DNA of 64,000 bases. It comes from Paramacrobiotus metropolitanus. Taxonomy: Eukaryota; Tardigrada; Eutardigrada; Parachela; Macrobiotidae. Positions within the stretch are counted from its first letter, which is position 1. Every line of letters starts with the position of its first letter. Below the pieces are notes generated by a model. That model worked only from the letters and a program-made list of their open reading frames with translations. It searched no databases and was not told where the DNA came from. This document shows positions 6,312 to 51,670 of the stretch, piece after piece. The position numbers were made by a program, and so were the translations under genes. The stretch lies in assembly GCF_019649055.1 (NCBI RefSeq), contig NW_026570325.1:1-64000 (forward strand), written 5' to 3'.

Positions 6312-6473
6312 AGGTACTGCTTCCCAGTCTTCGAAGTACTCCGTTACTTCGTCGGTCGGAAACCTCCGGCCGTCTACCTGGTTGGCCTACCAAGGACGGT
6401 TCAGGCGTCATTCTGACGTCCTGCGAGGTTGCGGGTCGGCGTCCCGATTCTCCGCTTAGCCCGTGGCTCATGC

Positions 6474-6902: not shown

Positions 6903-7267
6903 CGACCTTAGACGTTTCCCTGGGATGTACCCGGGACAGGTCCGCCAACTGCCGGTTGGTATCCGCCCGGGCCCCTATTGGGGGCCGGGGACGGCGGCAG
7001 TTGCGGCCGTTGGGCTGGTGGCGGAGTTGCCAATGGGGGTCGACCACCATTCTGGGGGTTCCCTCCATTTCCCTGGCCAGGCTGCCGGTTAGGGCTGCCT
7101 TGGCCGCCGAATCCGCCGGCATTCTGCTGGCGGGGGCGCGGGGGTGGTACGATGTTCGGGTAGTTTTGATTCGCCGAGCCTAATGGCCATCCGTTATCGT
7201 ACCGGTACCTCCAGTCCAGGTACCATCTCCGGTTTGGGTTGTCTTCTAACCGGAGGTTGGCGTAGCC

Positions 7268-7309
7268 ACAACTCGCTTGGTTGTGGTTGCCCCATAGGCA
7301 GTGACCGCA
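7268..7309 (-). other. CCHC zinc knuckle of Gag (nucleocapsid)
   Basis: The minus strand encodes CGHCLWGNHNQASC, which fits C-x2-C-x4-H-x4-C, the nucleocapsid zinc knuckle that binds the element's RNA. It lies just past the Gag ORF, in the frame that reads EAKFFQ, then a TAG codon, then TQDGIFS before the first Cys. The knuckle is therefore separated from upstream Gag by both a frame change near 7420 and an in-frame TAG. Either the copy is decayed or expression uses frameshifting or readthrough. Confidence 0.7.
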
Positions 7310-7343
7310 GGAAAATATTCCGTCCTGGGTCTACTGGAAGAAC

Positions 7344-8939
7344 TTAGCTTCCATCCGATCGACGTAGGTTGCCTGCTGGCGAGCCTCCTGCTGTGGTGTC
7401 CGAGGCTGCCGCTGCATTCTGGGCCTGGCCGCCTCCACCCGCGCGGTTGCCGAAGTTTCCGCGGCCGCGATTCCCGCCGCCACGTCTTCCGCCGGAGCCA
7501 CCATATTGTGAGGCTCCACCGCGTCCATATCCGCCTCCGAAGCCATACCCCTGGTTCTGAGGTTGGCCGTAGCCGGAGTTCTGGCCGTAGCCCTGTTGGG
7601 GCTGGCCGTAGCCGGGGCTCCGAGGCTGGCTGTAGCCCTGTTGGGGCTGGCCATAGCCGGAGTAACCCTGGCTCTGTGGTTGGCCGTAGCCGGGGCTCCG
7701 AGGCTGACTCGGTTGGCCGCTGCTCCCGTAAGCTGGCGGCGTGACCATGGTCCCTGTTGGGGCTCCATTGAGGTTCATCGCCGCCATTGCCGCCCAAGTC
7801 TGTTCAAGTTGACCACGGGCCTGGGGTGGTGGTGTCGCCGGAGGGCTCTGTCGGTGAAGCCCCGGTTGCACATTCTGGTAACCTGGCGAGTTGGGTTGGA
7901 TGTATCCGGGAGCCGGTTGGGTCACAGGAACGGGAGTCGCCGTCCTGACGGTGATGTAGTTGGTGGAGTTGCCACCTTTAACTACCTGATACATCGGCTT
8001 GCCCCGGGTGAAGTCCCGTACATAGTCCCGGAACTCATGCGTCGTCTTCGGCATTCGGACGTCCAGAGCTGCCCGAAGGATTGGCTCCGTGACATTCGTC
8101 CGTAGGTAGAAGACTGCCAGTTCGTCGGTGAGGTTGCCTCGTTGCTTGAGGTTTATGATGGCGTCGTAGTACTGCTCGGGGGTCTCTTGCCCCAGCATGT
8201 ACTTTCTGGTGGTGATGTCCGCGACTGCTGTGACCTGTTTGTCAGGGTCCATGAACCGGGCCGCAAATTGCTGCAGCCAATAATCAACGGTCCATCCGTT
8301 TTCTTCGGGTTCCAGAGTTGATTGGTTCTGGTACCACTCCAGGGCTTGTCCAGTTAGGGCGCCCTCTAGCTCCGTCATAAAGGCGACGTCCGTCATTGCG
8401 ACGCCGTCAGCCTCCGAGCGATAAATTCGCCGGATCTTTGTGATCCAGCCTTCCACCTTGGCCCCGTCGCCGTTAAACTTCGGCAACTCTGCCCGATTCT
8501 TCCGAGCCAAGATCCGGTTGTTCCGCTCTTCGTATCGGCGCCGCCCTTCTTCATAGCCCTCCTGTCGGGCTTGAGCAATGTCTTGCTCATCAGGTGGTGG
8601 GGTCTGACGGTGTTGGACCGCCGGCATCGCCTGTTGGGCTACCGGAGGGTTCCAAGCCACCGGGTAGGCCGCTTGCTGGTTCTGCGCAGCCGGGGCGGAG
8701 GTGGGTGGGTTGAGGTTGAGGCTGTGGTTGGGGTTGAGGTATGGGTTACCAGGGGTGCCGGCTGGGGCTGTCCAGGTCCGGGCGGATTCTGCGCTCCATA
8801 CCCCTGGTTCGGCGGTTGGTTTGGTGCCACATACCCAGGCATCCTCTGGGACTCTGTTGTGGTCGAGCCACATCCCGGTGGTATAACCACATTGGTCGGC
8901 CTGGGGCGCCGGACCTGTGGGTCCATATTTGCCCTGCAA
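7344..8939 (-). CDS. Gag-like structural protein of element 1 with a Gly/Tyr/Gln-rich tail
   Basis: This 531-codon minus-strand frame has three parts. Residues 1-130 are Pro/Ala/Gln-rich. Residues about 140-310 are a Ty3/gypsy Gag capsid-like helical region, with ALEWYQNQ, FAARFMDP and a C-terminal FRDYVRDFTR. Residues about 330-531 are strongly repetitive, built from YGQPQQGY-like units and then an RGG-rich segment. The tail resembles the prion-like and RGG regions of FUS-type RNA-binding proteins and may mediate RNA binding or condensation. Capsid assembly is the expected role. The end of the frame shifts near 7420; the sister frame carries the more plausible continuation towards the zinc knuckle. 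Confidence 0.78.
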   Translation of the reverse strand: MQGKYGPTGPAPQADQCGYTTGMWLDHNRVPEDAWVCGTKPTAEPGVWSAESARTWTAPAGTPGNPYLNPNHSLNLNPPTSAPAAQNQQAAYPVAWNPPVAQQAMPAVQHRQTPPPDEQDIAQARQEGYEEGRRRYEERNNRILARKNRAELPKFNGDGAKVEGWITKIRRIYRSEADGVAMTDVAFMTELEGALTGQALEWYQNQSTLEPEENGWTVDYWLQQFAARFMDPDKQVTAVADITTRKYMLGQETPEQYYDAIINLKQRGNLTDELAVFYLRTNVTEPILRAALDVRMPKTTHEFRDYVRDFTRGKPMYQVVKGGNSTNYITVRTATPVPVTQPAPGYIQPNSPGYQNVQPGLHRQSPPATPPPQARGQLEQTWAAMAAMNLNGAPTGTMVTPPAYGSSGQPSQPRSPGYGQPQSQGYSGYGQPQQGYSQPRSPGYGQPQQGYGQNSGYGQPQNQGYGFGGGYGRGGASQYGGSGGRRGGGNRGRGNFGNRAGGGGQAQNAAAASDTTAGGSPAGNLRRSDGS

Positions 8940-9442
8940 GCTGGCATTCCCGACCAGCAGCCGGGGGGCCAGACCTATTGGGTCACGGTTGTCTGGCCGA
9001 GGCTGCTGTGATGCGTTATCCGGGTACCGGGTCAGCCAATCATGCCCTGCCTGCCGATAGGTTGAACCATCCTCGGCGTGTTCTGGGAACCCGAACGTTG
9101 TCGGTCCCGGTTATTCTGAATGGGTGAGGCCAGGGCGGGGGTCGGGGCCAGGAGTTCAAATCTCAGGGAAGTTCGAGGCTCTCGGGGGTCGTCTGTCCGG
9201 TTGATCGATACTACAGGCCTTGTTCGGTTGAGAACATCGTCGTTGTGGATGTTCCTCCGTACCGTGTAGGTAGTATAAGTGGCCGTAGAGAATTGGGAAC
9301 AGCCGTCGAATGTCATTTCGTTCCGGCTCCGGGGCTGTCGGTACCAACGGCGGCCTCGGCATAGGTCCAACCGAAGGTTCATTCCGAAGCATTCCGACCT
9401 GGTAGGTTTGACTCTCGAGAGCCCCCGTTTGACCTGTTGGGT

Positions 9443-10490
9443 TCAGCAGGGGGTTGTCTCGGCGCAGGTAGTCGTCAATCTGCCGACATTTGTCCTGCTC
9501 TTGGGTAGTCCGGTAGGATGGGGTTGCTCAGTCATAGAGTCCTCAAGGTAGGTCTTTTCCTCCTTCAGGCACGCGACCTCAATACCCAGGTCTTCTCGTT
9601 CCTGGACCAGCTGATTGTACTTATCGCACAGGCCGGTGTACTTGTTGGTCACGTCCGTGGTGTAATCGTAGAGTTCCTGTTGGTACTTTAGGAGACGGTC
9701 CTGGTCTATCTGCAGTTGGGTCTTCTCGGACTCTAACTGTGTGATCCGGGCTCGTTGGGCCTCGATGACTGCAAGATTCTCGACGCGAGCCTGTTCGAAC
9801 CGGGCTGTCTCATTCTGGAGATGAGTGGTGAGGGGAAGAATCTGCTGGCCAATTTGGGCCTGGCATAGCCGAAGGTCTAGGGCTATACCCTCCGGGTCAT
9901 TCTGGTTCTCCCGGAGGTTCGCGTAGGCCGTCCGAAGGAAGTCGAGTTCCGAGTTGAGCTCGTCGATCTCTCCCTCCAGGCCGATAATGCCCTGCTTAAG
10001 GTGATGGTTCTCCTCGCGGTACTCATCCACCCGGTCGAACATCTTATGGAGTTCCGCCGAGCCAGCCTCGGAGTAGCCGAGGGCCTGTAACCGCTGCTCC
10101 AAGTCTTGGCGCAGGGTGGCCACTTCGGCCCGAGACTGCTCCAGCATGTCCTGGAGTCTAGTGACTTCGGCTTGTTCGTGACGGCAGGGCTCCTCAGTTA
10201 CTTGCAACTGGGCCTCTAACCGTTCGATCTCTTGGGTAAGGTCATCAATGACAGCATTCGCACGTTCAAGTTCGTCAGTGAGCCTCTTGCGCTCCTGTTT
10301 GTGCAAAGCCACCGTCTGGGACAGAACATTCTCCGTCGATTCGACGATGTTTTGTCCGGCCAAGAGCTGGTTTTGCAGCTCGTAAATCCGTTGACGGAGG
10401 GCTTGTGGGTTGTCAATCTTCTCCGGAGGGTCTTTGTCAGGTACCGCCGGGGTGTAGTCCGAGGCTCCGATGTGAGCCTGGGTATTGCTT
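9443..10490 (-). CDS. Coiled-coil ORF upstream of Gag in element 1
   Basis: The minus strand encodes about 340 residues dominated by heptad-patterned Glu, Leu, Gln and Arg, for example LTQEIERLEAQLQ and the stretches after it. It is an extended coiled coil, roughly residues 40-300 of the frame. The open frame continues upstream of the first start (10363) to about 10490, where the preceding disordered ORF hands over by a frame change. The Gag frame starts 500 bases downstream. I know of no standard Ty3/gypsy domain with this architecture. It could be an N-terminal extension of Gag that drives oligomerisation, or a captured host segment. Function is inference from structure alone. Confidence 0.6.
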
Positions 10491-11801
10491 CGGTGACGGA
10501 AACCTGAAGCCTTTTCTGCTGTCCGGACGCTCGGTCACCTTATTGGGTAACACAGTTGCGTCGAAGACATCGTCGGTCGGTGATGGAGTTTTACCAGCCC
10601 CGAGGTCCGAGGGTTCGAACATCGGGGGTGTAGCCGGAAGGTCCGAGGTTGGCTTTGCAACCTTCGGTGAAGCCGATTTCGACTTCCGATCAGTCTTTGA
10701 GGCTTCGATCCGGCTGGCTCGGGTCGGCATAGGTTCACTGCCGGGGGTCTTGGGTTTCGGGGATGACGGTCCGCCAACCGAGGTTAAGTTAACCTCGGTA
10801 ACCGAACCCTCAACCTCGCCCGTGGAGGTTGCAACCGACGAAATCCGGAATTTGACCGGGGAAACAGCTTTCTTAGCCGAGGAAGTGGGGGTTGCCGGCC
10901 GGGTCCTGGGTGTTCCAACCTGTTGGGTCGGAGTCCGGACCCCAGTGTTGGGGGTCCGAGCCTCGGTGTCCGAGGCTCGAGCCTCGGTGTTCGAGGTTCC
11001 AGCCGACTGCAACCTTCCCGTTGGTGATTTCGAAGTTCCCGGGGTCGGCTTCGGTGAGTTTGAAGTCCGACTTGAAGTTCCAGTAAGGATCCTCGGGTCC
11101 GGTGTGGTCACCTTCGGAGTCCCCGAGGGTCGCTTCGGGTCCGGCGACGTCGATTTCCGACTGTTGTCCAAAGATTTTGGGTTGTTGCCCGTTGGTTTGG
11201 GGCTTTGAGCCAGGGTCAATGGGGACTTAGTCGGTGAACCCGCCTTGTGGGTCACCCCCCGGGTCGGTGATACCATACCCTTCATCTGGCTCGGGCTCAT
11301 CTGGCCTTGCCTCGGTTTCGGTCCAGCCATGCTGCCCTGTTGGGGCTGCACAGGGTCACCCATGTCCGGTGACGCCTCGGAGCTACTTAGCGCCGGGCTC
11401 GAGGCTCCATGGTCCGGGGTGATGGCCGGGAAGAGGACTGGCGAGGCACCTATTGGGTGCACAAGTCCAGCTGCAGGCTCGGAGTTCGCCTTTCGACCTA
11501 TTGGGTCGTGCAGAACCTCCGGTTCGGCCTGTGGTAGCTCGAGGAACGTCCGGTCGTGGGCGTCCTCGAAGCTATCCTCCGGCGATTGAGTGAAGTCGTT
11601 CGCCAGGATCCGCGCGTCCCGCTTCTCCTTGGCCGACTTGGTCGACTGGTTCGACTTGCCGGACTTACTCGATCGGTTGGAATCCGACGAGTGAGGCTCA
11701 CTACCCGGGCCGGCATGGCGGAAGGTGTACCCGCCTGCGTTGTCTCGTCGGGCGTAGCCTTGGTCGAACTTCCGTTCATACGGGTTCTCTCGACCGGACA
11801 T
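10437..11801 (-). CDS. Disordered Ser/Pro/Thr-rich first ORF of element 1
   Basis: This 454-codon frame starts with an ATG at 11801 after the leader. It encodes a highly polar, disordered protein with short imperfect repeats (NTEARASDTEART, SPKPTPGTSK, and KSDKS-like basic/Ser runs near residues 40-60). No enzyme motif is visible. It ends at a TGA at 10437-10439, while the coiled-coil frame is already open from about 10490, so the two overlap by some 50 bases in different frames. In a working element they may form one product through frameshifting, or this copy may carry an indel. It is not a domain usually described for gypsy Gag. Confidence 0.55.
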   Translation of the reverse strand: MSGRENPYERKFDQGYARRDNAGGYTFRHAGPGSEPHSSDSNRSSKSGKSNQSTKSAKEKRDARILANDFTQSPEDSFEDAHDRTFLELPQAEPEVLHDPIGRKANSEPAAGLVHPIGASPVLFPAITPDHGASSPALSSSEASPDMGDPVQPQQGSMAGPKPRQGQMSPSQMKGMVSPTRGVTHKAGSPTKSPLTLAQSPKPTGNNPKSLDNSRKSTSPDPKRPSGTPKVTTPDPRILTGTSSRTSNSPKPTPGTSKSPTGRLQSAGTSNTEARASDTEARTPNTGVRTPTQQVGTPRTRPATPTSSAKKAVSPVKFRISSVATSTGEVEGSVTEVNLTSVGGPSSPKPKTPGSEPMPTRASRIEASKTDRKSKSASPKVAKPTSDLPATPPMFEPSDLGAGKTPSPTDDVFDATVLPNKVTERPDSRKGFRFPSPKQYPGSHRSLGLHPGGT

Positions 11802-12684
11802 CTTCGGTGGTGGCTCTATTGGAGCCTTGAAGTAGCCTCCGGGTTGACCCTTCAGCCAAGAAGTCGGACTATCCCTATTGGGGACTTGTCCGACGTTGAT
11901 GAGGCTTTTTGCCTATTGAAGGTCCGAGGGTCCGGTGGGGGGGCAAAGGTCCGGTGGGGTGTGGGGTGATGGTGTAGGTGTGCTTGTACTACTTGCAACT
12001 CAGTACTGTTGTCAATACAGGGTACAGCTTACGTACGTCCTATACTACAGCACTGACCGCTATGACGTCACACACCGTTAAGTGGTCTTGCGGATTACTG
12101 CCTACGTCACGATTCTACGCGCCGCGTGCAAAATTCCAAAAAACAGTGACTCACTACGGACTTATAACATAGGGAATCTCCCCGTTATCCTGATTGGTCA
12201 GATTTTAATATGGTAAATCGGCCGTCGTGACGTCACAATTAATTTTTAATTTGAATTAATTATTTTTGCCGTGGGAAAATCGGCGAAAATTCCGGAAAAA
12301 TTAAGAAAAATTATTTTTCACCGACCAAAAATTAATTTAGCCGGGGGAAATTAGCTCCCGTAATTTTCCGTAATTTTAGAAAGGTTGTTAACCGAGGCTC
12401 AGAGGGTCTACACCGAGGCTCGAGGGTCCGGCCTAGTAAGGCTGGCTAACCCTATTTCTACCCTAATTAGATGTTTTTAAGCCCGTTTTTTCGGGTAAAA
12501 ATAAGTTTTAGCCGGCCAAAACTACTTTTAGTCCGGTGAAAATGAAAATTACCCCGCTATATCGGGTCTTTAGAGGCTCTACGAGGCTTACCGAGGGTCA
12601 GTCGACCCTATTTACCGGGTAAGTCCGCGTGAATCCGCTTGTCGATCCGGTGAATCCGCGCTGTTAAAGTTGCGGGTGCCACTT
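11802..12684 (-). other. Untranslated leader of element 1
   Basis: About 0.9 kb without a convincing ORF separates the candidate LTR from the first ATG on the minus strand. It includes an AT-rich block (12230-12340) and the same CGAGGGTCC and CCGAGGCT words seen inside the coding region. On the minus strand TGGCACCCGCAAC (12668-12680 on the plus strand) has the TGG start expected of a primer binding site, but I could not match it to a particular tRNA. Confidence 0.4.
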
Positions 12685-37800: not shown

Positions 37801-38562
37801 AAAACTTTCAAATGATTTCAGTTTTTACCTGACCGGAAAAAAGTAAAGGGAAATTAACGGCACTACTTTTGTCGATCACTGTCTCTTAACAAATCCACCC
37901 AAATTGAGAATACGAAGCTTTAACTGAATCGAAGATATGAATTGACTGCTCACCGCATCATACCCTCGTGAAAATTAAAGTTACAAAAAAGATCTAGTTA
38001 AGAATTCGTGTACTATAGATTATACTACTAAACGTTGTAAAATATTTTGTGAGCAGCCGATTCTATGTCGAAGTTTTATGTAACTTCTCATCTTTGTTTA
38101 CTTACACAGTTACACTTAATGCTACACAAAACTTCCACGACAGTTCAACATTTTCATTATCACAAATCGAGAACAGACACGGCAAAATACTATTCGTAAA
38201 AAAATAAAAAAAACAATCAGAACGTCGCAATTATTTGCTAAAGTCTGTCGTAAATCCTGACTTATTTAAGTAAGCCAGGAGAAAAACAGCGAAGTTATTG
38301 ATGCGAAACAAAAAATCATAGGGTCAAGATGATGACTGTAGGAAATGAGAATCGTCGAAGAGGGTGAGAACTAATCCAGGCAAAGGAAGGGCGCTCGGCT
38401 AATTCGAACCAGAAACACCACAGTCGCAGCGGTCAAGACCGACAGGATGCGTGTCTAAGCCAAAGGAGCATACATCTGGAAACAAAGAACGTAATATTCT
38501 CAACCGAATTAAAATTATCAAGTGAAGTTGGACAAGAAAAATAGATGATTTTGCTTACTTTT
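37800..38562. other. Intergenic left of the palindrome-bearing cluster
   Basis: No gene seen. If the cluster at 38.6-49.2 kb is a mobile element, its left terminus may lie here, but I found no terminal inverted repeat matching 49.2-51.6 kb. Confidence 0.35.
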
Positions 38563-40355
38563 CTACGTGTTGCACAAAATGACGAGCTGAGTACTTCCAT
38601 CCTTCACAGTCTCGTATGTCACCAGCTCGATCAGGTCGTCCGTCAAAGGGATGTTCAGTGGCGGGATGTCGAAAACTGTATGCGGTGGAATCACTCGCTC
38701 CCTCGTGGCCAGCGGTCCGGAAGCCAGAGGACATTCCCGAGCGTTGCATTCAATTGCACGTGCAACGTCACCTTTATAAAAAGGTCCAGACAAAGGAGCG
38801 AAGCAGCCTCGGCATTTCAGATAAAACTGTTTCTGCAGAACAAATACTGTCATCAGCAACAGATTTATTATCCAGAATAACTGGAGTCGACTCCTTAATT
38901 CTTACCGCATGAATCTTCCTCATATGCGTGCTAATATGCAGCCAGTTGATTTTCTCACCGCAGAGGGTACACAAGACGTAATAGAACTCCCCCTTTGACC
39001 TGCATTAAAGCATTCATTACAAACTGTATACCCATTGAAAAAAATGTGAACAATAATAACTACCATTTATGAGCGTGGTTTAAATAAGAACGGACTTCCG
39101 ATCTAATCAGACACATCACGCAATGGCAGGTTGCAGTTTCTGTCCAATGCTTGTGCGGCAAGGACAGATCAAGCCGACGGGTGGCGAGGCGGCAAAGTCC
39201 CACAGAGTCCAGCATACTTTTCGCCGTCTGTTAAATGCGTAAATAAAATGACTGACAGTCGTACAAATTAAGACTTAACCGAACAATTCCTGTACCTCCG
39301 GCGAGTTTGAAAGAAACGGTTTAATCCAGTCGTAGACATAGCACGACACCGACGCCTGGTCTTTAACAGATGGAGGCTTCTGAAGACTGCGGGGTAGGAA
39401 GGCAGAAGAGGCAAGTCTAGGTCGACCTTTGTGTTTTGCCAAGAACTCCGCCCACTCCCGGACCGCCTTTTCCATATCCATTGAGAAGCGAATGTATTTA
39501 TGGAGCTCATTGCCCATCAGCTCACAGTCAACGTCGGAGTTTCTGTAAAACCGGCAGATGCTTGATTATTGATTTAGCGAAAAATTGAATAAATATTAAG
39601 ATCTTTATGTTAGATACAAATACTGAAAATATTTATGCTCTGGGGAATTCTGCAGTACCCGAAAATTGGAACGTTCTGCGTGATCCTGGCGAATATATTG
39701 AGCCGCGTGAGGTCATTACCGCTCAGATAAAACTTCCCCTTGTTTTCATATCCGTCAAAACTTTCTGGAAAAGCGCAGCGGAAAGTATTCAGCGGGAGTA
39801 CAATCGAACTCATTCCCGGAAGAGGAATCTCCGGTGCTATGGTCACCAACGATACGACGGTGTCTAAATTCTGCACCAGATCCGACATCGCAGTGAATCT
39901 CAGAGCTGCAGAAAGCCTCCACCCTTCGCTGCAAACAAGAAAAAAATACAATTAGAAAATGGGTCGACCCAGCATAGACTGCTAAAATACACAAGTATGT
40001 ATTACACGTTGCAATTCGGACAACGACAGACGATGTCGTGATTCTCGTCAGCATTTGCACCCGGCTGTTTTGCAATCCATTCGTCTGCGCATTTATGACA
40101 CACTATTCCACTACAGCAGGGCGAAATCACAAGGCTATGGAACGGACAATCAACGCCAATCATACACTGAACGGAATTCTTCACATCCTGCAAACAAAAC
40201 AGAAAATCATAAAAACAACTTGTAAATGTCCATGGGATAAGTTGAGAATTAATTTTGAAAAATCTTAAGACCTAAATTTTGCATTTAATCCGCTATTTAA
40301 AGATGGCTGAACTTACGTATACTGCCTCTAATAATCTTCTTCGGTGATTTTCCAT
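38563..40355 (-). CDS. RING-like and zinc-finger protein in the palindrome cluster
   Basis: Seven minus-strand exons by splice-site reading: 40355-40317, 40187-40006, 39928-39659, 39542-39296, 39227-39064, 38999-38906 and 38832-38563; phases agree throughout and the product is about 421 residues. Exon 2 is RING-like: Cys pairs in VQCMIGVDC, SPCCSGIVCHKC and VCRCPNC. Exons 5-7 form zinc-finger modules: CVMCLIRSEVRSYLNHAH, CTLCGEKINWLHISTHMRKIH (Cys2-His2) and KCRGCF with ECNAREC. A ubiquitin ligase or DNA/RNA-binding role is suggested, not shown. GTCGAC palindromes lie a few bases before the ATG (40360), in intron 2 (39961), in exon 4 (39419) and in intron 6 (38883). The model needs transcript support; exons 3 and 5 are the least certain. 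Confidence 0.55.
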
Positions 40356-41309
40356 TTTAGGAGTCGACTCCACTAGCAGCGGTATCCTGTAGCGAGAAAT
40401 CCGATTTTCGGTAAATATAGTACCGTAGTAATAATCCAGAATAGTCGCGGCTACAGCTTGCTTAAGGAGAAGCCGTTACTACAAAAATCGATACGAGTAC
40501 CGAAGCCGTCAAGGAAAAATAATCTATAACCTTTTCGCAGTGTAATCCCTTAGGCCACAATGAAGTGCGCCATGCGAGTCTGCTGCCAACCCTGTACAGT
40601 ACTTACCCATAGATAATGCCGATCAAGAAAATGTGCCAAACGCCAGTCCAGAACACAGTTATGATTACGGAAAGTATCAAGCCACCGCATCAAACAACGA
40701 CCTACTGTGATACATTCATATGATGAGAGAGATCTCCCGGCTTCGATCCCGGCCCGGTTGTATTACCGTCCTGTGGCAGCTGCGGCTTGTGCAGGCACGG
40801 ACAGCTGATCGGGGCGCAACAATATCCAAAGAATCTGCAATCAGGAAACAAACTGCAACAACGTTTCAGAATTCCTGAATGCTTCCGATCATGTTACATT
40901 TCACATAAAGCTCAAGCTAAATAATCTCGAATCGCACGCCTACAAATGCTATTTTCGGTACTGAATTTTCTTTTTTCAGTACGGAATTTTCAGTACTGAA
41001 ACCAGGCGTACAGACACATAGGAACCCTGATTCTTGAGATCATAAAGATGCTACTCTACAGAAATTCTCTATCTGGCGCAGCCGGCGATCTATTTCGACT
41101 ACAGTGGCTACACACCGCCACTGTAGCTTAACGGTTACTTGCAAGTTTACGATATCTCGCAGCCCCTTTTCTGTCTGTGGCCCTCCAAACTTGGAGTAGC
41201 ACTTAAAATCCTAGCCTATTGCAAAACTGAATGGTTTTTCAATTTTACATTCTACCGATAAAGACGCACGTAACAACTATTTATTAAATTTAACCCCAGC
41301 AGGCAAAGC

Positions 41310-41560
41310 ACTTACACTACGGTAGGCAATCAGTGACGCGTCGCGCAACCAAGAAACACTTGGATCGTCCACTTGCGTTGTCCACGTGGGTCGTTGGGCG
41401 CTATGATCCGTCTTGTTTCGGCTGTAGAAACCCAATCGCGAAGGCAAGCGCCATTCTGCATTCAGATCATCCGACTCTTCACCGCAATCCACCACACCGC
41501 CGCACTCAACAGAACAAGGAGAACATGAACAAGAGGATACCGCAGTTGCTAATCCAGAAA
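41310..41560 (-). CDS. Possible exon of an unknown gene
   Basis: Minus-strand open frame from a plausible acceptor (CTGGATTAG) to a GTAAGT donor near 41309. It encodes about 80 residues with a Cys-rich start (SSCSCSPCSVECGG) and an acidic then Trp-containing stretch (AEWRLPSRLGFYSRNK). No domain is recognised and no clear partner exons are found. It may belong to a gene interleaved with the palindrome cluster, or be chance. Confidence 0.25.
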
Positions 41561-42340
41561 AATGGGAATATTCGTTACAAGAGGAATGATCAACAATAGT
41601 AATTCTTTAGATCAGTCAACGCTTCACATCACATAATCATAATCGAAGAAACTTTTGAACCGTTGTTCGGGATGCTAAATTAAAAGTTATGAGTGGCATT
41701 TACTTGTCGAAAGGTAAAACTATAAACACTGATATTTTGCGCAACTACTGGTTCTTCTAATTCTCTAATTACCACGTTCTCACAGTTCACTGGAAAAACC
41801 TGTTGTCGGAACCCAGCGTGTGTGCATGCGGCGCGATTCTTTGACATACCGAAAGCGTCTGACGCGCCACCTACCTCTTCTTGACTTGCAACACTACTCA
41901 GTAACGCAGAAGTACTTATAATTGGAACATCTTACTCGGACATTACTTACTATGTTCTTAGTGAATTACTTAGTTTAGTTTAGTTGCGTTTAGTTGTTAA
42001 ACTTGTTTCGTTTATATGTTTAATTTCTCCTTTCTTAACATCGTTCTCTACTTTTATATTTTTGTTAACTTATGCTCTTCCATCACATTTTCAATAAAAA
42101 TTGACAGTGACTACATGAGACCCACGTCAACCTATGGACATCTTTTAGAGCATTTCTGACATCGGGATAATTTTCAGCGCATCTTTCTAATATAGAAACC
42201 ATTTCTCAATATTTTTTTAGAAAAAAAAAATTTCTTACTGCCGGGTCCCATTACGCACCTCGATAACCTTGGGCGGTTCCGATGACGCCACGAACGGAAT
42301 CTTTTATTTATGCGTTTTATCTACTTTTTCTAGGTAAACC

Positions 42341-42495
42341 GATATCGCTGATTCTGAATATGCTGTCAAAAAAACAGTTTAAGCCTAGGAAAAAAAATTT
42401 TTTGTTGTTGAAAACAAATTTTTACATATTCTATCAAAATTTTTCCGTCATATAACAAGCACAATTTGCCTGACAGCATTCAGAATCAGCGGTAT
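42341..42495. repeat. Short inverted-repeat element (hairpin or MITE)
   Basis: ATCGCTGATTCTGAATATGC at the left and its imperfect reverse complement at the right flank a 95-base AT-rich centre with AAAAATTTTTTGTTG. Total about 155 bases, no target duplication identified. Confidence 0.6.
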
Positions 42496-43029
42496 CCAAG
42501 AAATCCAAGAAATTTAGAGATTTAAAGAACCTAAATAGTCTACGAAAACTAAGAGACCAAGTACTCTTAGTAATTTAAAATACGTAAGTAATTTTAAATT
42601 CATGTACTTCTTAATTTAAAATATCTAAGTAATATAACTGATTTGAGTAATTGAGAATCTATTAATTTAATAAATCAAGAAATCCAAGGATAACATACAA
42701 ATTTTTTAAATCACAATCTTTAAAACCATATGTCGGCAATCGCCTAGTACGGGTTAGTATAGCGAGGCCACGCCCAACACTAAGCGTTAGTTTGAAAAGC
42801 CTTTTGCTGCCTAAAATTTGCCGGTCTTTGTCTTGTCTGCAACAATGTTAAGCATATCTGCAGTGTTTGCAAGTTTGTCCCTTAACATTTTTTGATTTTA
42901 TTAATTTATCCTGGTGCTGTTATTGTTGGGTCGACCCGTGTCAAGTGAGAAACGCCTGCGTTATGTTTTGTATGCTGTTGCCAAAAATCAAGGATTTTTG
43001 TTACAAAGTAAAGAGTGTTTGTTTTTAGC

Positions 43030-43533
43030 ATGTCCAGCGATGACGAGTCGTTATTCGAAGGATGCTTTATCATTGATCCCCGACCGTGCAAGTCTCGAGA
43101 AGCAGTCCTCCAAGCCCTGAAAACAGCTACCACAAGGGTTGTGAAAAAACCAAATAAAGAGATGAAAAAGGTCGACCTACCGTCTGAAGAAGAGCCGCGA
43201 GCTCCCGCAACAAGTGATACACCAGAAGATACCTGGGAATCGTTCCCTATTCGAGTAAGTACATTCCCGTAAGATGCCGTGGCGATATACGTGTTCTGCT
43301 CATATGAACAAGTTCTATGTTCGCATAAAGTTGCCCATACATAAGAAACTAATTTTAACTTATTTTATGGTTTAATGCAGTTAAGTAAATTTCAGGTACA
43401 AAAACGTGATGCTCCTATCTTTCAAGAGCCGACCGGACCGAAAAAGAGCAATGAAGAATTCGATGATTTTGACTATGAAAGTTTAGCTTTTGAAGACGAA
43501 ATTGTGCTACCGAAAAGAAAAAAACAAAAGTAA
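43030..43533 (+). CDS. Small acidic protein with a basic C-terminus
   Basis: Two exons, 43030-43254 and 43396-43533, joined at CGA|GTAAGT and TTTCAG|GTACAA in phase 0; 120 residues. A closer acceptor 15 bases upstream would add five residues. The N-terminal half starts SSDDESLFEG and contains a Lys-rich patch. The second exon is acidic (EEFDDFDYESLAFEDE) and ends PKRKKQK, a likely nuclear localisation signal. No known domain. It is convergent with the transposase gene 90 bases away. A GGGTCGACCC palindrome lies 93 bases before its ATG, AGGTCGACCT lies in exon 1, and another GGGTCGACCC lies between the two convergent stops. It may be an accessory nuclear protein of the putative element. Confidence 0.5.
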
Positions 43534-43619
43534 TGATCATAATTACTTTTTAATTCCATCGTGTTGAAAACGCTGCTTGGGTCGACCCGTTTTATTTATT
43601 CGTAAAGATCTGAATTTAT

Positions 43620-46245
43620 TTACATGATAAATCGCTCATTCGGTATACAGACAAAGAATTCAGGATAATTATTATTATGCTTTCCATATATACACACAAC
43701 AGGTCTAAACAGGCTATCGATAGCCACTACATCGCACTTCTGACAATCAAATCGCAAGCATTTTCTTATAAAAGACGGATTTGTACCATCTGGCAGTTTA
43801 ATGGCACTAAACGGCTCAGTTTTTATGTGCTCAACAGCAGCATAAATAGTTCGTACAGCTGATTCAAAAATTACGAATTTTAACAGCTTCAGTATTCTGC
43901 CATCCTCCGTTTGGAACCAGTAGTTGCACCGCACCTCTTTTCTGCTAGTACCGTAACACTCCAGTTCAACGCCATCGCTCCGGATTACTCGGTTCCGGAA
44001 GCTATGTGGACAACCTTCTAGCGCTTCTTGCAAAAGGCCTATCTTTTCCAAAATTTGCAATTCCAAATCCGCATCGTAAATGGGTCGACCCGTTAACTTA
44101 TACGAAAAATAGGGAGTCTTTATGTCATCACTAGCGCCAGCCACTGACTGGTGACAGCGCGAAGCCTCTAAATGCTGATAATTCCGTACAATTTGTGACG
44201 CCACGTCCGTACTGCCATGAACCGATTTCATTAATCCACCCAAAAAGTCTTCAAAGTAAAAGGTCGACCATTGATATGCAGGCCCCCAGTTTTCAAGGGC
44301 TGTAGAAAGATGAATAAGTTGGTGAACGTTAAACAACATCCGCCGCTCTCCGTACAATTGTTGGAATTGCTGGCAATAACGAGAAATTAGGCCATGAGCG
44401 GTAGCAGCGTGGTCACTTAGTGACCCTCCATAATCCAACATGAGATAATGCATAGCCATCACTAAATCTAGCAGATTTTCGTAAAGTACGTGAGGCAACT
44501 GTCCATCCAAAACATAAAACGCTCCATACATGAGAAAATTAAGATATTCAGAGGCGTGATACGACGAACATTCCGATATGGGTGGAATTGTGCGGCTAAA
44601 TTGTGATGGAAAGATGATCCGAGAAATTCTTAGGTCGACCTCGTTCTGAAGATTAGCGGGTAGAATTTTCCTCCTTTTGTTATTAATATTGGTGTAAATA
44701 GGAAGACAGCACATGGGATCCTGCATCCAGTATTTGCATAGCTTTTTGGTTACTCCTAAACCAACAGCGTGGAGAATATCAGGAGGACAATGCACATCGG
44801 GACTGAAAGAGGGAATTCGAAACAATCTGCTTGCACGGATAATTCCATGGAATTGTTTATTGTGCTGCAAAGCAATCCGTGCACTGCGGATATACTCCTG
44901 ACGATCTTTTTTTGCCGAAACACAATCGAAGGGGTACACGCGAACGCCATCAACTACTTTTCCGGTGTGCAGGCACGCAGTGCATCCATATTCTCCGGCA
45001 AAAGATCCGTGACACAAGATGTCATTTCTTGCAATGGTATCAGCCACCCATAATGCCGGCTTTATTGCACTGATTCCGTCCGCTTGGGTCGACCCATTTG
45101 CAGTATCTAAAAGTTCCGCTGCAAGGAGTTGTAAGATAATATCCATGTTCGGTTTCACCTTTCCCACCGCAAGGGCAAACAGAAACCGGTTCCGGTATCG
45201 CTTACGCGTAGGAAGTTCGTTGATTATGTAGCTAACAACTGTAATCGATCCGTTCAAACTTCCATTGAACCCAAATGTTTGTCCGTCGTCCACATGAAAT
45301 GTCAGCGATATATCTCTTCCGCCTATATTCAGCCTTTGATATTCCTTCCCATAAAAAATGTCCAGATCTGTAACGCTGTTCCTGAATGTAAATACATCGC
45401 CTCTTTTGTCCGAGTTTATATATCGTTCGACAGTGCACCTAATCGGAAACGTGTGAAAAATGCTCCCTCGCGTTCGGCTGTCTTTAATGGTTTTATGGGT
45501 CGACCCGCATTCTGCACTGGAACAGCTTATTGGATCCCGAAGATTGCTTTCTTCTTCAATGTAGTTTTGATGCTCAAAGCAAAAATGATGGATATTCGGA
45601 TTCAGTAGATAAGGCGTTAGAAACGAATCAAGATAATACAGATTTCCAGGGAACTCTGAAGTGTCCTTGGGTAGTTTCTGGAAAAAGTGCAACATTGCCC
45701 CCTGTTGAACGCGTGACATTTTGTGCTTCCTGCAGATCCGCACGAACTGCATGACATTCCCTAGGGTGTCGACACCGGGATCACCTCCAGCTTCTTCATG
45801 CGTATCTGAATCCGAGCTGACATCTCCGTTAGTTGTATAAACCACGTCCGAAGCAGTCGCTTTGTCATCCCGGGTGCCGTCGGGAGGCATGCGCTTGAAA
45901 TAAACATTTAACAAAATTAATAACTTTAGTTAATAATAATTGCGGATTATATGAACAAAACATTTGACTTTCCATTTAACATTTTAAAACTAGAACAACT
46001 TATATCACTGATAAGATCTGAGTGTTTAAAACTGTAACACTCGTAGCAAATTAATTTCATGAAATTAATAAATGAAATACCAGGGAGTCGACTCCGTCTG
46101 TCTGCGATTCACTGTCACTTGACTCAACAATTCGAGAGTTGTCCAGTTGTCTGCGGTTTCTCCAGTGAGATGTTTTCGGCAAAAGTCCGTCTTCATACAA
46201 GTACGATCGATACCGTTTTTGGCGCTTGCGTTGTTTTTCTGCCAT
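43620..46245 (-). CDS. EnSpm/CACTA-like transposase
   Basis: Two minus-strand exons: 46245-46081 (55 codons, phase 0 donor CTG|GTATTT) and 45893-43620; 812 residues. The N-terminus is very basic (MAEKQRKRQKRYRSY) and then acidic. The catalytic core resembles EnSpm/CACTA transposases: FHVDDGQTF with a candidate first Asp, a Cys-rich GEYGCTACLHTGKVV, PDVHCPPDILHAVGLGVTK with the next acidic centre, and HQLIHLSTALENWGPAYQ then FYFEDFLGGL with a candidate Glu. The frame has no internal stop or shift over 2.3 kb, so the gene is probably under constraint or young. Seven GTCGAC palindromes fall inside its exons. It shares a divergent promoter region with the plus-strand ORF at 46709. Domestication as a host gene is an alternative. 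Confidence 0.78.
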
Positions 46246-46708
46246 TATCGAAATTATTTTAATGAAAGTTGTAACGAAAAAATTACTTTAGAATAGTTCA
46301 CGGTAAATGTAGCTGCAGAAAATCAAAGACGCCGTCACTATTGTTGTTTCGCTTTATCAAGCCGCGCGCATAAAGAGCCGGTAACCCTAGCTTCCGCTAT
46401 TAATTTTTGGTTGAACTGAACTGTACCTGCTTGTGCACGATAACAGCTGTAATAGATGGGCGTCGCGCGGCGATGGTAAGCAAATCGGCATGTATGTACC
46501 GAAAGCATAAGGGGTCGACCCCTATAAACGTAGATGATAGCGATACGCCCGATTCGTGCCGTCCGCATATTTTCTTTTTCACTCGGCGACACGTTCACGT
46601 AACCTTTATTTGTGCGCTGTGAAGAAGTTGCAGATCTGTGCTCTTCAAATTCTTCGTTTTGTTAGAATAATTTTTTACTTCCTTGGAACTCTGCAGCATC
46701 ACCTCAGG
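46246..46708. promoter_or_regulatory. Divergent promoter region with a central 12-base palindrome
   Basis: 460 bases separate the transposase ATG (minus) from the ATG at 46709 (plus). GGGGTCGACCCC lies at 46511-46522, a little right of the middle. It is the longest G-type palindrome in the set and the only one in this interval. Control of both genes by one bound factor is inference. Confidence 0.45.
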
Positions 46709-46906
46709 ATGTCTGTTCAAAAAGATAAGCCGCCTGCTCAAAAGGGTCGACCGCAGCGTGCCAAGAAGGTTTCCGGATCTTTGAACGAAGACGACACAGA
46801 AATGGATGATCAACAACGCCAGCAGAAAGAAATTCATGTCCGGCATGCCGCTCGAAAAGGTAGTAACCAACTAAAGTTGAAAAGATTTCGGGGAGTCGAC
46901 TCCTAA
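46709..46906 (+). CDS. 65-residue charged ORF between transposase and BEN gene
   Basis: Open from the ATG at 46709 to TAA at 46906: a basic start (KDKPPAQKGRPQRAKK), an acidic middle (NEDDTEMDDQQRQQ) and a basic end. It has two palindromes inside 200 bases: GGTCGACC encoding Gly-Arg-Pro, and GGAGTCGACTCC encoding Gly-Val-Asp-Ser directly before the stop. A GTAGTA donor-like site at 46861 means it could instead be a first exon spliced to something downstream. No homologue recognised. Confidence 0.4.
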   Translation: MSVQKDKPPAQKGRPQRAKKVSGSLNEDDTEMDDQQRQQKEIHVRHAARKGSNQLKLKRFRGVDS

Positions 46907-47291
46907 TCAGTTTTGCAATTTTTCCAACGTTCAGTAGTTGATTCTGCATATATGCAGGTAAAAATGGCGCCAATCACCAAATCAAAATGTTTTGAATTTC
47001 CAACCTAATTTTATCGTTTTGTATGTGAAGAGCTTACTGTTGACAGTGACAGCCGTATTATTTGTCATCGATTTGACACTGCCAAAATTTTAATTTTGGG
47101 CTTTCTAAATGTGGCTGAATGGAGTCGACTCCGGCCCGTTTTGTTAATATTTTACCGGTTGTTTAATTAGATGAAGATAAACGCAAGGGCTTAGAGATTA
47201 GAACGTTTTCAACAACTGCTAAATAAAAGAAAATTTTTCAGATTTTTGTGTTGTTCAATTTGTTGACGACGGACTTGTTCACATTATTTCT

Positions 47292-49171
47292 ATGGAGCGG
47301 CCGTCCAGCAGCGCGGCATGGCGTTTGGAAGAAATGTCCACTTATGAACCACTGCTGAAAGAGGGAGATATTATTAGCGTGAAGGCGCCAAGGAACCAAG
47401 ACGCCCTGCAACGCTTCTTCTCGGCTCGGGTTGTTAAAATTTCTTCAAGCGAAAAAGATGCTGTTTCCGTTGCAAAGAATTTGGATTCGCGAAAGGTAAG
47501 ATAGTGTTGCAAAACGTGCATTAATGCCAATTTTGTTTTTTATTATCGTATTTCGTCACTATTAGAGTCGTCGTGCAGTTTGTCAGCAAAGCAATATTTT
47601 GCAGAAAGGAAAGGGCGCGCGGACGCTGGAGTCGACTCCATCTAAAAAGAAAAGTCAAGAAGACCTGCTTAACGAACTCAGTTCAGAGCCTGAATCCAAA
47701 ACGGATGCTAGCAACACCCGGGATCTCAACTGCAACTGGAAATTTGATCCCTATACCGGAAAGCCCGTTGGACAATGTAGTCCCGTCGCAACCGGTAGCG
47801 GAAGCATGAAAGGAAAGCAATCAGGTACAGAGAAGCTCGGTTGCTGTTTCTGTTTGTTTTATTATTTTAAAAATATTAGTCAATTTAGAGCTGCCGGCAC
47901 ATAAGCGGAAACGACAGGAATCTGAGGAATCTAATGGTAAGTGGTTCCGATTGTTTCGTGGTACAGCAGGTCGACCTTTTCCATGGTGAGCTCAAGATGG
48001 CGTAAGAACGCTTGAATACTGCCACAAGTCAGCAATACATCTGCGAGTTATTAACATGTACTGTACATTCTTGGCAGGAAGTGATGATGACAACTATACA
48101 TGGTACAGGCTGTCTCCACCTACGGGCAAGCCAAAACTGCCGGCAATAGCGGCCCGAGAATTGTTTCCTCAAAAGATTATGCGTAAGTTACCTGTTAGAG
48201 GCCAAAATAATCACATTTGACTATCACGGTGTTAACGTATCATTTAGGAGCCGACAAAGGTGACGAAGCAGATTACCCAGGTTACGACAAGGAGTCGACT
48301 CCACCGATGAAAGGTAACAGAACCGTTTGCATGTAAATATGCTGATTGCTTTCAGCATTCGCTTTTGCCGCTATTTTGCAATGCATCTCTTTTATTCACA
48401 GATTTTGACGCTGAGCAACGTGGCGGCTCATCAAAAGTGGAGAAGCAAGCTAGCGGTACAAGAACTTATTAAGCAATTACCTAACCATTGTACCCAGTAA
48501 AATCATATTTTATAGGCAAAAAAAGTGCTGGGAATGCGAAACATAAAGGTGCGGTATATCCTGTTTCAGCTTTTTTCATACAGATGCTGCACAGATAAGC
48601 TTGGTCTTTTTTCGATAATTTTTAATAAATAACTTATTGGATGAGGTCGACCTTTTCCCGTGAAGTTTTTTTTATGTTTCACTTAGATGCAATCATGGAA
48701 GAGCAAAGAGAATTGGCCGAGACCTGTCGACAGCAGCTGAGATTGAAAACCAAAGAGAAGGTGGAGCTCTATCCGGGATCCGGAGTGTATTTGCCGAAGG
48801 GGCAGTTCATCAATTTCGAGGCCCACTTAAAGCCAAAGAACGCCCTCATGGACGGTGTCAACCTTGCGGTGATGTTTTTCCGCAATACAGAAACGGCAAC
48901 CCGGATCTTTCGAGGAGACCATTATGGCTTGAAATCTGCGCTCGGGACAGATCTGATGGGCGAATTGATGGGTATTAATTAAAATTTCAAAAACCAGTTA
49001 TGACATTATCACCAGAGAAAATTTTTGATCGTAGCTTACATCAATGGATATCATCCAGCTACGGCCGGGAAACAGTTGAAGATCCAGGAAGCAGAGCTGA
49101 TCCGCGCTTTCAGCCGTAAGCTGTACTACCTGCGTAATCATGGGAAGGAGTCGACTCCACGCAAAGATTAA
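47292..49171 (+). CDS. BEN-domain DNA-binding protein
   Basis: Nine exons: 47292-47495, 47566-47824, 47889-47936, 48078-48182, 48248-48313, 48402-48455, 48516-48548, 48687-48971 and 49035-49171. Phases agree at every junction (first phase 0, all others phase 1) and the product has 396 residues. A possible chromatin-reader-like start (LLKEGDIISVKAP, FFSARVVKI) is followed by a disordered, Ser/Lys-rich middle with the basic signal KRKR. Residues about 265-390 resemble a BEN domain: VELYPGSGVYLPKGQFI, LMDGVNLAVMFFRNTETATRIF, LMGELMG and a final helix KIQEAELIRAF. BEN proteins bind DNA, often at palindromic or symmetric sites, and act as repressors or insulators. Three exons carry GGAGTCGACTCC, each encoding Glu-Ser-Thr-Pro. 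Confidence 0.66.
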
Positions 49172-51670
49172 GCGTTTCCAACGAAATCAGTGTTAACATT
49201 GGCGCAATGATGTTTTATTGGCTATTTTACCACCGGCGGAATACGTCCGATTTAGCGTTTTGCATTTATGATACCCCCTAGCATATTTTTGATACCTTAC
49301 GTGAATACCTAAAGTGCACGCGATGTTTTATTTTTATGCACTTTTTGAGTACGTTTTCTGTATCTTTAGTCTCCGAAATGTGCTGCACTGTTACCTACAA
49401 GTGTTACTGGGGAACTTTCAATAAAACTTCTAAAAACGAGTTCCAAATTAAGTTGGTAATTGTAAGTTCTACACTAACTTTTGTGGCACAAAAAGGTATA
49501 GCTGCTGTTCAAAAATTGTTACAAAAAAACTTATACATTTTCACGGGGGATAACGGTTTAAGTACCGCGCAATTTGCGCGGGGTCTACTAGTTGAGATAA
49601 TAACATTTGAAAATTTTAATCACCAACCGGCATCTGGACACTTTTATTATAAACAATTTTATTATAAATACTTTTTTATGGATCGAGCGTCCTTCAAATG
49701 GTAGAAAAATCACCGTACATAAGTACCTGCTTCCGCTGGCAGTGGCCGACCGAGAGGCACAAGTAGGATGCGGCCTGAGAACTTGAGGTAAGGTAAGACT
49801 GTAAGAGTGCCTAAATTAAATTAACCGCCACTGCCTAATTGTACGACAAAACATCATCGTTGCTCTGGCGGCTACAGCACGCACAACGAGGGTAAATCGT
49901 GATGTGTGGGCGTCGGTCACCACCAACTGGTCGACACCAGGTCGACAATTGCAGAAGGATGTTGCTACCATACGCATAAGCAAGTTGGACAACTCCCTAA
50001 ACCGACAGTTGCTTTGCCTTTGATGGGCATTGCACCGCTGCCTTGAACAATGGGCAATGTACAAGTATTCAAAGGGAAATTCTAGAACTTAATAGTACTG
50101 GTTCTGGAAGTGGTTGTGGTACGTAGTTGTGCTGGTAGTGGCTTTGGTGCTTTGCAGGCGTACTGAATGATTTGAAAAGCGAACTCACCAAGTATCACCC
50201 ATCAGAACTATGGAGTATCACCCACTGTGACCTTTCTGTTCCATAAAAAATGCCTCATCAGAGGCCTAACTTCGCTGAAGAAACAAAATTCATTCAGCAA
50301 TGTTCGTTACAGCAGCATTATTTATCACTGCGGTATCATTTCTTCTTTGAAAGTTGGCTTTTAGATTTTTGGGTACCATTATCGATTTGTGCCGTTTTGT
50401 GAGCAAGGTTACCGTGTACAGATCTGTAGTCGTGTATGCTGTACAGCCCCGCTATGTTACGGTAGCCAGTGTTGCCATCACTGACTGCGGTGAGATCATT
50501 GCGATACTTCCGTAACGGATAGAAATCAATCACTGCATTGTCCTGAATTCAGAACCCTAGCTGCGCTCCGGAAGAACTGACCCAGCAATCATTCGTACAG
50601 CGACCGTCAGCCCTGAATCTCAGTATGGATACTTTACTGAACATGAGAAGCGCATCGTTCGGCTGGTTGTGTGTGACGTAGCATGCCGTAGTTTGCGGCC
50701 CTCATCATCCTGGTAATCCTAACCGCGATACGCCGTACATCGAGGAAATTTAATCTTCCATTGTGTATACAGCTATTATGCGAGAAACGCAATAAAGCGT
50801 GGTCCGGTAGGGGTTTCGGATTACAGTAAATTTACGCTAAGTGCAATAGTTTTGTCGCAAACTGCTATTTCCGCTGCGTTCAGGCGATACCAGTTCACAG
50901 CTACGCACTTTTCTTCATATCGATCCATGACGGGAATTAATATAAGCGATAGGCAAGCGCAAAATCAGGTACGGCTGGTACGCTATATCGAACCCGTGGA
51001 TTTGTTGTAAGACTAACGGCTTCGATACTTCCCGCATTCTCATTATTAACCTATTCAGAGCTATTGTTCCATTAGTTATTGCCGCCCGTGATTTTAACAA
51101 GGTAGGAACTTTCGAAACTTATCCTGAATTCTTTCGGGCTGTCAGTCCTTATTGTTATAGTCTTCGCGAGCAGAATACTCGAAATGGCCCTGGATAAGTG
51201 TGCATTGCTGAAGTTCTGTTTGGCACTGGCGATATTGATCCTGAGCTGGTAAGGTCATCGACATTTTTCCTTTGCTTAAGTGCTAGTTATACGGTGCTTT
51301 GAGGTCATTGCATCTGTTTGTGGTTTTTCCGCTCGTTTCGCTAAAGTAACCGCAAGAAATTATACCAGCAGTAATAACGGTATCGCTCGCTATTCGGTTG
51401 GAAGCAAAAAGCTCGTGATCGACACAGTTTGACATCCAGGTTGATTTCGATGGCGTAAGAAGTTTTTGTTTACGGGTCTTCGTTTAGGGTTTTTGATTCT
51501 TTTTGTTTACGGTTATTTGTTTGTGAAACTTGTGTATAGATACTTCTTGATATTGCCAAAATAAAACTTTTATTTCAAACTTGTACAAGTAATGCCATTT
51601 ACACTTAAACTAAGAATGCCACAGTAATGCTTTTTGGAGCCACGAAAATAATTCCACAATATGTTTTCAG
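49172..51670. other. Intergenic right of the cluster
   Basis: 2.5 kb without a convincing gene; a 122-codon plus frame (49336-49704) is AT-rich and has no recognisable content. Two GTCGAC sites 11 bases apart at 49930-49946 lack the full palindromic arms. If the cluster is mobile, its right terminus should be here. Confidence 0.35.

Follow-up and report, generated by a model that had tools for sequence, protein, structure and literature searches.

Why should a cluster of genes carry the same kind of short palindrome through its coding sequence, introns and intergenic spacers alike? The question arises from a 64,000-nucleotide stretch of the genome of the tardigrade Paramacrobiotus metropolitanus (contig NW_026570325.1, positions 1 to 64,000, forward strand; hereafter the window), in which a first-pass annotation had pointed to 24 palindromes centred on GTCGAC. 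These palindromes lie in a large DNA transposon, and the sites are under selection at the DNA level along the whole element, in transposon lineages. The reading that we favour, with a probability of about 0.5, is that they are recognition marks kept by selection along the full length of several kinds of DNA transposon. How animal DNA transposons escape from, or make use of, host chromatin is a largely open field; an element-wide cis-signal common to unrelated transposon classes would indicate a common trans-acting factor and give a handle for its isolation, and co-varying arms, if true, would be a new type of DNA signal.

The window contains 37 GTCGAC hexamers, 24 of them within 38,886-49,155 and 13 in the remaining 52 kb. 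In the cluster 22 of the 24 are centres of perfect palindromes of at least 10 bp (10-14 bp), as against 2 of 13 elsewhere in the window, which confirms the reported 24 palindromes across ~10 kb; the two exceptions, with cores at 44,263 and 46,746, are 8-bp palindromes. As had also been stated, the sites are single and have differing flanks, and an origin as a tandem or longer repeat is rejected. Core-to-core spacing is 80-542 bp with the single exception of 2,567 bp (40,363-42,930), i.e. the spacing of 80-530 bases originally given describes most of the cluster and misses one gap. The 20 sites between 42.9 and 49.2 kb are spaced more evenly than any of 20,000 random sets (coefficient of variation 0.36). 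Helical phasing of the spacing gave no clear signal (Rayleigh values ≤0.31); for the window, 18 of these 20 sites entered that analysis (46,746 and 48,726 were dropped), and the evenness test used all 20.

The palindromes stop outside the cluster because they sit within a mobile element that ends at 37,963 and 49,549; the abrupt stop noticed at first is thus seen in the counts inside and outside, and its boundary is that of the element (Table 1). End-to-end alignment with two further copies in the genome compared (G000, 169.8 Mb), at C46 and C82, gave 87.6% and 88.0% identity over aligned bases. The three copies have the 13-bp inverted ends and 3-bp duplications of a DNA transposon (ATA in the window, TAT at C46 and ATT at C82); of a fourth copy, at C214, only the right end and the transposase were seen. 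The last 130 bp of the element were found at at least 16 further places, one of which (L004) has a left-end match ~2 kb away, and because that left end is so close we take the further places to be probable short non-autonomous copies.

Constraint on the sites and coupling of their arms

Divergence between copies is four- to fivefold lower at the window sites than in their flanks. At the 24 sites the 12-mers of the window and C46 copies differ at 7 of 288 positions and the flanks at 329 of 2,580, and the corresponding figures for C82 are 10 of 288 and 355 of 2,559; in both comparisons none of 2,000 random draws was as low. In C46, 21 of the 24 GTCGAC are intact, compared with 101 of 202 other 6-bp palindromes. 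A pair of piggyBac elements, L059 and L061, was compared at 11 sites, where 0 of 110 positions are changed in the 10-mers and 124 of 1,210 in the flanks (6 of 5,000 draws as low); the 12-mers have 1 change in 132 positions (22 of 5,000 draws) and the hexamer cores 0 in 66 (101 of 5,000). Codon-preserving shuffling, the comparison that the first-pass annotation had proposed, was applied to six coding sequences (for C19, C116 and L063 the longest stop-to-stop frame), and in none of the six did any of 5,000 shuffles attain the observed number of 10-bp palindromes (5, 4, 5, 4, 3 and 3). Site conservation and the codon shuffles reject chance or codon choice as the origin of the palindromes. Because the palindromes occur in all three reading frames, and in introns and spacers, the constraint acts on DNA.

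What is constrained became clearer from a relative at C19, whose transposase is 44-46% identical to that of the window element. Each of its 17 GTCGAC sits in the middle of a perfect 14-20-bp palindrome, and eleven three-base arms occur among these sites. Outward from GTCGAC the C19 arms are complementary at 17, 17, 17, 17 and 16 of the 17 sites, against 5.5, 7.5, 5.6, 13.2 and 16.0 expected if arms are dealt out at random among the sites, and at the sixth position complementarity falls to 2 of 17. For the window element the values are 24, 22 and 13 of 24 (expected 10.4, 12.3 and 7.6), followed by 4 of 24 at the next position. Arm length is a property of the family, giving palindromes of 10-12 bp in the window family and 16 bp in the C19 family. 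The summed arm lengths of the window and C19 elements lie above all of 20,000 shuffles, and those of the piggyBac elements L059, L060 and L063 were reached by 17, 16 and 33 of 20,000. The 17 C19 sites are also evenly spaced (coefficient of variation 0.26, with none of 20,000 random sets as even). The picture is not entirely tidy: only 7 of the 11 GTCGAC in L063 are complementary at the first arm position, and in 3 kb of L069, which is more distantly related, the single GTCGAC is asymmetric.

When the window transposase is aligned by codons with those of C19, C57 and C116 (51-53% nucleotide identity), GTCGAC stands at identical columns 458, 1350 and 1909, and a fourth site is displaced by 6 columns where the alignment has gaps. 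No counterpart in the other family exists for the first C19/C57 site or for those of the window at columns 189 and 1730. At column 458 the window has GGGTCGACCC where C19 has GCGAGTCGACTCGC, and column 1909 reads GCGGGTCGACCCGC in C19 and C57 and GCAGGTCGACCTGC in C116, with double changes at column-homologous codons (TGCGG/CCGCA in C19 and C57, TGCAG/CTGCA in C116). C76, the least similar row, has two palindromes, and of these the one at column 189 is found in the window as well. The piggyBac sites correspond between lineages only in part: one codon position has GAGGTCGACCTC in L060, GGGGTCGACCCC in L063 and GGGTCGACCC in L059, with no palindrome there in L064 and L065, and at another the site has moved by one base, and so into another frame, in L059. 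In the ten-exon gene of C19 (see Table 1 for the window copy) the palindrome TTGATGTCGACATCAA lies 22 nt upstream of where the exon homologous to that starting at 48,687 appears to begin. In these alignments of diverged relatives the palindrome is retained at homologous codons, with both of its arms altered in concert; self-complementarity is kept, rather than one word.

Occurrence across the genome and in piggyBac elements

We compared the genome-wide count of each main palindrome word with that of the same word read backwards. Two of the three are enriched, GGAGTCGACTCC (74 vs 4) and GGGTCGACCC (109 vs 64); the third, AGGTCGACCT, is notable solely for its concentration at the window locus. 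Among the 72 listed of the 74 GGAGTCGACTCC matches, 59 could be placed by coordinates and 13 remained unassigned. Of those placed, the four window-element copies account for 26, while 15 lie up to ~1 kb inside other right ends, 14 are at piggyBac transposase matches and 4 belong to loci that resemble L063 in translation; a pair of C35 sites was left unplaced because it is on the outer side of the nearby right-end match. Similar density throughout the genome, which had been named as the outcome that would count against a special signal, was not seen in the DNA read: in addition to the 13 GTCGAC in the rest of the window, 29 other loci (102 kb, overlaps included) contain 9 distinct ones. The predicted concentration in the locus and its copies is there as well, but the signal is not private to them, as it recurs in unrelated piggyBac elements.

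PiggyBac transposase matches are found where palindrome words cluster, at C24, C7 (two places), C48 and C195, and also at the C153 sites. The PF13843 profile has 38 matches in the genome, and six piggyBac lineages were read, L059-L061 having been chosen via palindromes and L063-L066 via profile matches. Three lineages are marked, i.e. L059/L061 (11 GTCGAC in L059 and 12 in the aligned element of L061), L060 (9) and L063 (11), and three are unmarked, i.e. L064 (1, asymmetric), L065 (0) and L066 (0). The L059 and L060 frames score above the Pfam cut-off for DDE_Tnp_1_7, as do the genome places of L059, L060, L061 and L063, and TTAA flanks both elements examined for it, L059 and L061. Loci L059-L062 and L001-L003 have no DNA similarity to the window element, bar one 28-bp match outside it, and nine such loci have no translated similarity to it at E 1e-6. 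Nor was a gene like the candidate-factor gene at 46,709-49,171 seen in the piggyBac stretches read. The coefficient of variation of site spacing is 0.24 in L060 (16 of 20,000 random sets as even; 8 of 9 sites used), 0.23 in L063 (12 of 20,000; 8 of 11 sites used) and 0.45 in L059 (193 of 20,000). The GTCGAC in the stretch encoding the catalytic Val-Asp-Glu (L060 2428, L063 and L064) is asymmetric and therefore serves as a built-in control.

Longer patterns were counted as well. TGCNNGTCGACNNGCA has 74 matches genome-wide (control 27), with the NN pairs complementary in 42 of the 50 matches listed and incompletely so in 8. TGNNNGTCGACNNNCA has 363 (control 236); among the 50 listed, complementarity is full in 23, the expectation with equal base use being 1 in 64, and incomplete in 27. 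Many of the matches to both patterns are repeats of one family and hence not independent. A repeat found at C3:1969978-1971672 and C4:24108-25903 contains four perfect 16-bp palindromes, all different, which follow one another in the same order at intervals of 546-631 bp, and three of the four were seen in the same repeat at C5:2082899-2084692.

Possible modes of recognition

If the palindromes are recognition marks, a twofold-symmetric factor would bind them as duplex DNA, in complexes a few hundred bases apart that would decorate the element over its full length. As the marks are shared between transposon classes, the factor would act in trans. It would most likely be encoded by the large elements and co-evolve with the marks, given that arm length and vocabulary are specific to each family of large elements; the best candidate is the plus-strand gene at 46,709-49,171, and the piggyBac elements would borrow the factor that the large elements make. 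The likeliest benefit would be element-wide anti-silencing or chromatin opening, as with the VANC protein discussed below, and the next choice would be a coating or looping that joins the element ends (synapsis). A more specific version, which we hold only tentatively, is that unrelated transposons share a mark read by a common factor as symmetry and not as sequence. Such a mark would have a constant GTCGAC centre and arms of a length set by the family, free to change yet bound to be complementary; it would run through genes and introns at even spacing and would license or protect the transposons.

Several observations weigh against recognition marks of this kind. A homodimer site of the ordinary kind fails to explain the coupled arms, as a single homodimer with tolerant arms would allow the two arms to vary independently; because the C19 arms vary between sites yet match in 17 of 17, several dimers or some other coupling would be needed. 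The dispersed signal for a symmetric, dimeric factor originally proposed is therefore upheld as a DNA-level, twofold-symmetric signal in coding, intron and intergenic sequence, and not as one fixed homodimer site, the arms being different yet complementary. We know of no mode of reading that requires variable bases six to ten apart across the centre to stay complementary in duplex DNA. The candidate factor, a 442-aa protein, has no Pfam match over the cut-off and no PDB match, so no DNA-binding family was matched, and the C19 copy of its gene has an in-frame stop (L067 1957-1959, minus strand), so that at least that copy is no source of the factor. In C76 the transposase is of the same kind and the ten-exon gene is represented by its N-terminal part (the C-terminal part lies beyond the stretch read), yet there are only 3 GTCGAC in 9 kb, two of them 10-bp palindromes; being nearly unmarked, C76 indicates that the transposase can exist almost without marks. 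In addition, at several sites of the other right-end places the third arm position is imperfect in the majority of rows, and AGGTCGACCT is not enriched genome-wide (352 vs 435 for the backwards word).

Other explanations account for parts of these data. It is possible, though unlikely, that the marks are cis-sites for transposition, bound along the element by the transposase or an accessory protein that synapses the ends. This would fit the 15 other right-end places that keep up to four GTCGAC in their last ~920 bp (16 stretches were aligned, two of them from one place), the right-end GTCGAC ~394 bp from the end, which matches the last site of the window element, and the C3/C4 repeat with its four ordered 16-bp palindromes. 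However, the marks span the entire coding interior and not the ends only, the piggyBac loci share words with the window element without translated similarity to it, and three piggyBac lineages lack palindromes. Somewhat less probable is a read-out by self-pairing, i.e. a hairpin in single-stranded DNA or a cruciform with a constant TCGA loop and any pairing stem. It accounts for the co-variation of the arms, which are complementary over five positions in C19 and three in the window (expectations as given above), and for the double changes described above and at the piggyBac codon (GAG/CTC in L060 vs GGG/CCC in L063). The window family, however, couples only 2-3 pairs beyond GTCGAC, which is too short for a stable hairpin, and we know of no single-stranded stage for DDE elements. 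An RNA hairpin is disfavoured, with G-T pairs at coupled positions in 0 of 85 cases in C19, 0 of 48 in the window, 0 of 22 in L059 and 1 of 27 in L060; in L063 there are 4 in 33, asymmetric sites included.

We consider it doubtful that transposons exploit a set of paralogous host homodimers that have the GTC half-site core in common but each recognise one arm class. Strict symmetry within sites would be explained, and the left arms of the window fall into classes (GGA in 8 of 24, TGG in 6 of 24) that recur in the piggyBac elements; but the single C19 element has eleven three-base classes and would need about eleven dimers, and the arm class at one site changes between relatives. Very little speaks for a host repressor that locates transposons through the palindromes in order to silence them: certain transposons are marked and the marks are rare in the other stretches read (9 in 29 loci), but transposons would be expected to lose such sites, whereas the lineages keep them far above flanks. 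The explanation to which we give least credence is that palindromes arise as a side effect of mutational or insertional events such as template switching, the opening of hairpins or small palindromic insertions. Symmetric arms of any sequence would result, but the length limits are sharp and family-specific, with 9 of 63 matches just beyond them against 19.3 expected, and one-armed breaks in other copies stay unrepaired. C76 has no palindrome at columns 458, 1350 and 1909 and yet no gap there, and this absence of gaps at three shared coding sites speaks against small palindromic insertions.

The annotation's statement that no described element carries such a signal was too strong. The Arabidopsis DNA transposon VANDAL21 carries a dispersed motif read by its own VANC protein, both motif and protein being family-specific, and the proposed benefit is escape from silencing (PMC5735166). 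The VANC21 motif, YAGTATTAY, is described there as non-palindromic, mainly non-coding, in the same orientation, in tandem-repeat arrays and rare in other transposons (PMC5735166). The window element resembles VANDAL in its dense repeats of short words in the element and its copies. Unlike VANC motifs, its sites are palindromic, single, evenly spaced, with differing flanks and in coding DNA too, their arms co-vary, and their words occur also in three piggyBac lineages. The En/Spm (CACTA) protein TNPA is likewise element-encoded, binds repeated 12-bp subterminal sites and is needed for transposition; its sites are subterminal and without variable-arm palindromes, whereas those of the window element run through the interior. 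DNA uptake sequences of Neisseria and Haemophilus and the PATC tracts of C. elegans are short signals by which the coding or intronic DNA that contains them is singled out for special treatment, but they are neither variable coupled-arm palindromes nor confined to transposons. The literature searched, as far as its accessible parts extend, held nothing that we recognised as this palindrome signal.

Genes of the element and remaining features

The five genes originally described are more exactly one complete spliced gene, one long transposase-like open reading frame, a small gene and, on the left, a gene defined only in pieces (Table 1). Four pieces of the left gene and the first piece of the small acidic protein were scanned without a Pfam match (for the left gene, none above the cut-off). 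The only outside homologue found for the candidate transposase comes from the tardigrade Ramazzottius; a profile search for outside homologues returned none and missed that one as well. With no Pfam match above the cut-off, no superfamily (CACTA/EnSpm, KDZ or other) is named for the element. A search for homologues of the 442-aa protein returned none; the N- and C-terminal parts of its gene have homologues in the C19 element. BEN-domain proteins bind short motifs (CATG, unmethylated CGCG) and one of them, BANP, oligomerises (PMC11472053). The C-terminal part of the 442-aa protein is BEN-like by eye only, and a BEN domain was not confirmed, as no BEN profile (Pfam) or structure (PDB) matched.

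Table 1. Coordinates of the element, its genes and its GTCGAC palindromes in the window
Position	Strand	Feature	Sequence	Remark
37963..49549		whole large DNA transposon carrying the palindromes		end-to-end alignment with C46 and C82 copies
37960..37962		target-site duplication, left	ATA
37963..37975	+	left terminal inverted repeat	CCCTCGTGAAAAT
49537..49549	-	right terminal inverted repeat	CCCCCGTGAAAAT	minus-strand reading
49550..49552		target-site duplication, right	ATA
38560..40190	-	left multi-exon gene, pieces only		open frames; Cys/His-rich piece ~40,002-40,190 RING-like by eye
43030..43533	+	small acidic protein gene, apparently two exons		open frames
43620..45914	-	candidate transposase, 764 aa		family without Pfam name
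46709..49171	+	ten-exon gene, 442-aa product		spliced frame; candidate trans-acting factor
38883..38894		palindrome	GGAGTCGACTCC
39419..39428		palindrome	AGGTCGACCT
39960..39971		palindrome	TGGGTCGACCCA
40360..40371		palindrome	GGAGTCGACTCC
42928..42937		palindrome	GGGTCGACCC
43169..43178		palindrome	AGGTCGACCT
43579..43588		palindrome	GGGTCGACCC
44082..44091		palindrome, coding	GGGTCGACCC	homologous column also palindromic in C19/C57/C116
44262..44269		8-bp short palindrome, coding	GGTCGACC
44632..44641		palindrome, coding	AGGTCGACCT	C19/C57/C116 palindromic at homologous column
45085..45096		palindrome, coding	TGGGTCGACCCA	relatives: one 6 alignment columns off, gapped stretch
45497..45506		palindrome, coding	GGGTCGACCC	C19/C57/C116: homologous column palindromic, other arms
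45765..45776		palindrome, coding	GGTGTCGACACC	same column in C76: GTGTCGACAC
46084..46095		palindrome	GGAGTCGACTCC
46510..46523		palindrome, intergenic	AGGGGTCGACCCCT
46745..46752		8-bp short palindrome, exon 1	GGTCGACC	not retained in C46 or C82; possibly chance
46892..46903		palindrome, intron	GGAGTCGACTCC
47121..47132		palindrome, intron	GGAGTCGACTCC
47627..47640		palindrome, exon	TGGAGTCGACTCCA
47968..47977		palindrome, intron	AGGTCGACCT
48291..48302		palindrome, exon	GGAGTCGACTCC
48644..48653		palindrome, intron	AGGTCGACCT	core 35 nt upstream of exon starting 48,687
48724..48733		palindrome, exon	CTGTCGACAG
49147..49158		palindrome, last exon	GGAGTCGACTCC	other right-end-bearing places: site at similar distance from right end

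The transposase of the C82 copy (C82:592579-594810) was matched in pieces, with stops; from these stops and the in-frame stop in the C19 copy of the ten-exon gene it follows that these copies are decaying. The C82 copy is bracketed by an inverted pair of 44 bp, and adjoining it is a ~700-bp self-inverted stretch (L037 1336-2032, i.e. C82:586336-587032) that is 80% identical to its own reverse complement. A fragment at C18:1424242-1426485 matches window positions 40,430-41,677, with the rest of the element unmatched there, and is perhaps a piece of another relative. Inside the window element, the palindrome-free 40.4-42.9 kb includes an inverted-repeat sequence (42,103-42,497) that has dozens of matches elsewhere in the genome and is perhaps a nested insertion. 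The transposase regions of C19 and C57 (L067 5850-5867 and L070 261-278) have in common an 18-bp palindrome, CGCATCCAGCTGGATGCG, whose centre is not GTCGAC; it is not among the palindromes listed for C116. Elsewhere in the window, G+C content is 53-59% at 1-12,000, 49-51% at 16-24 kb and 37-44% in the other 4-kb blocks, and an isolated perfect 18-bp palindrome, CCGAGGCTCGAGCCTCGG, lies at 10,970-10,987.

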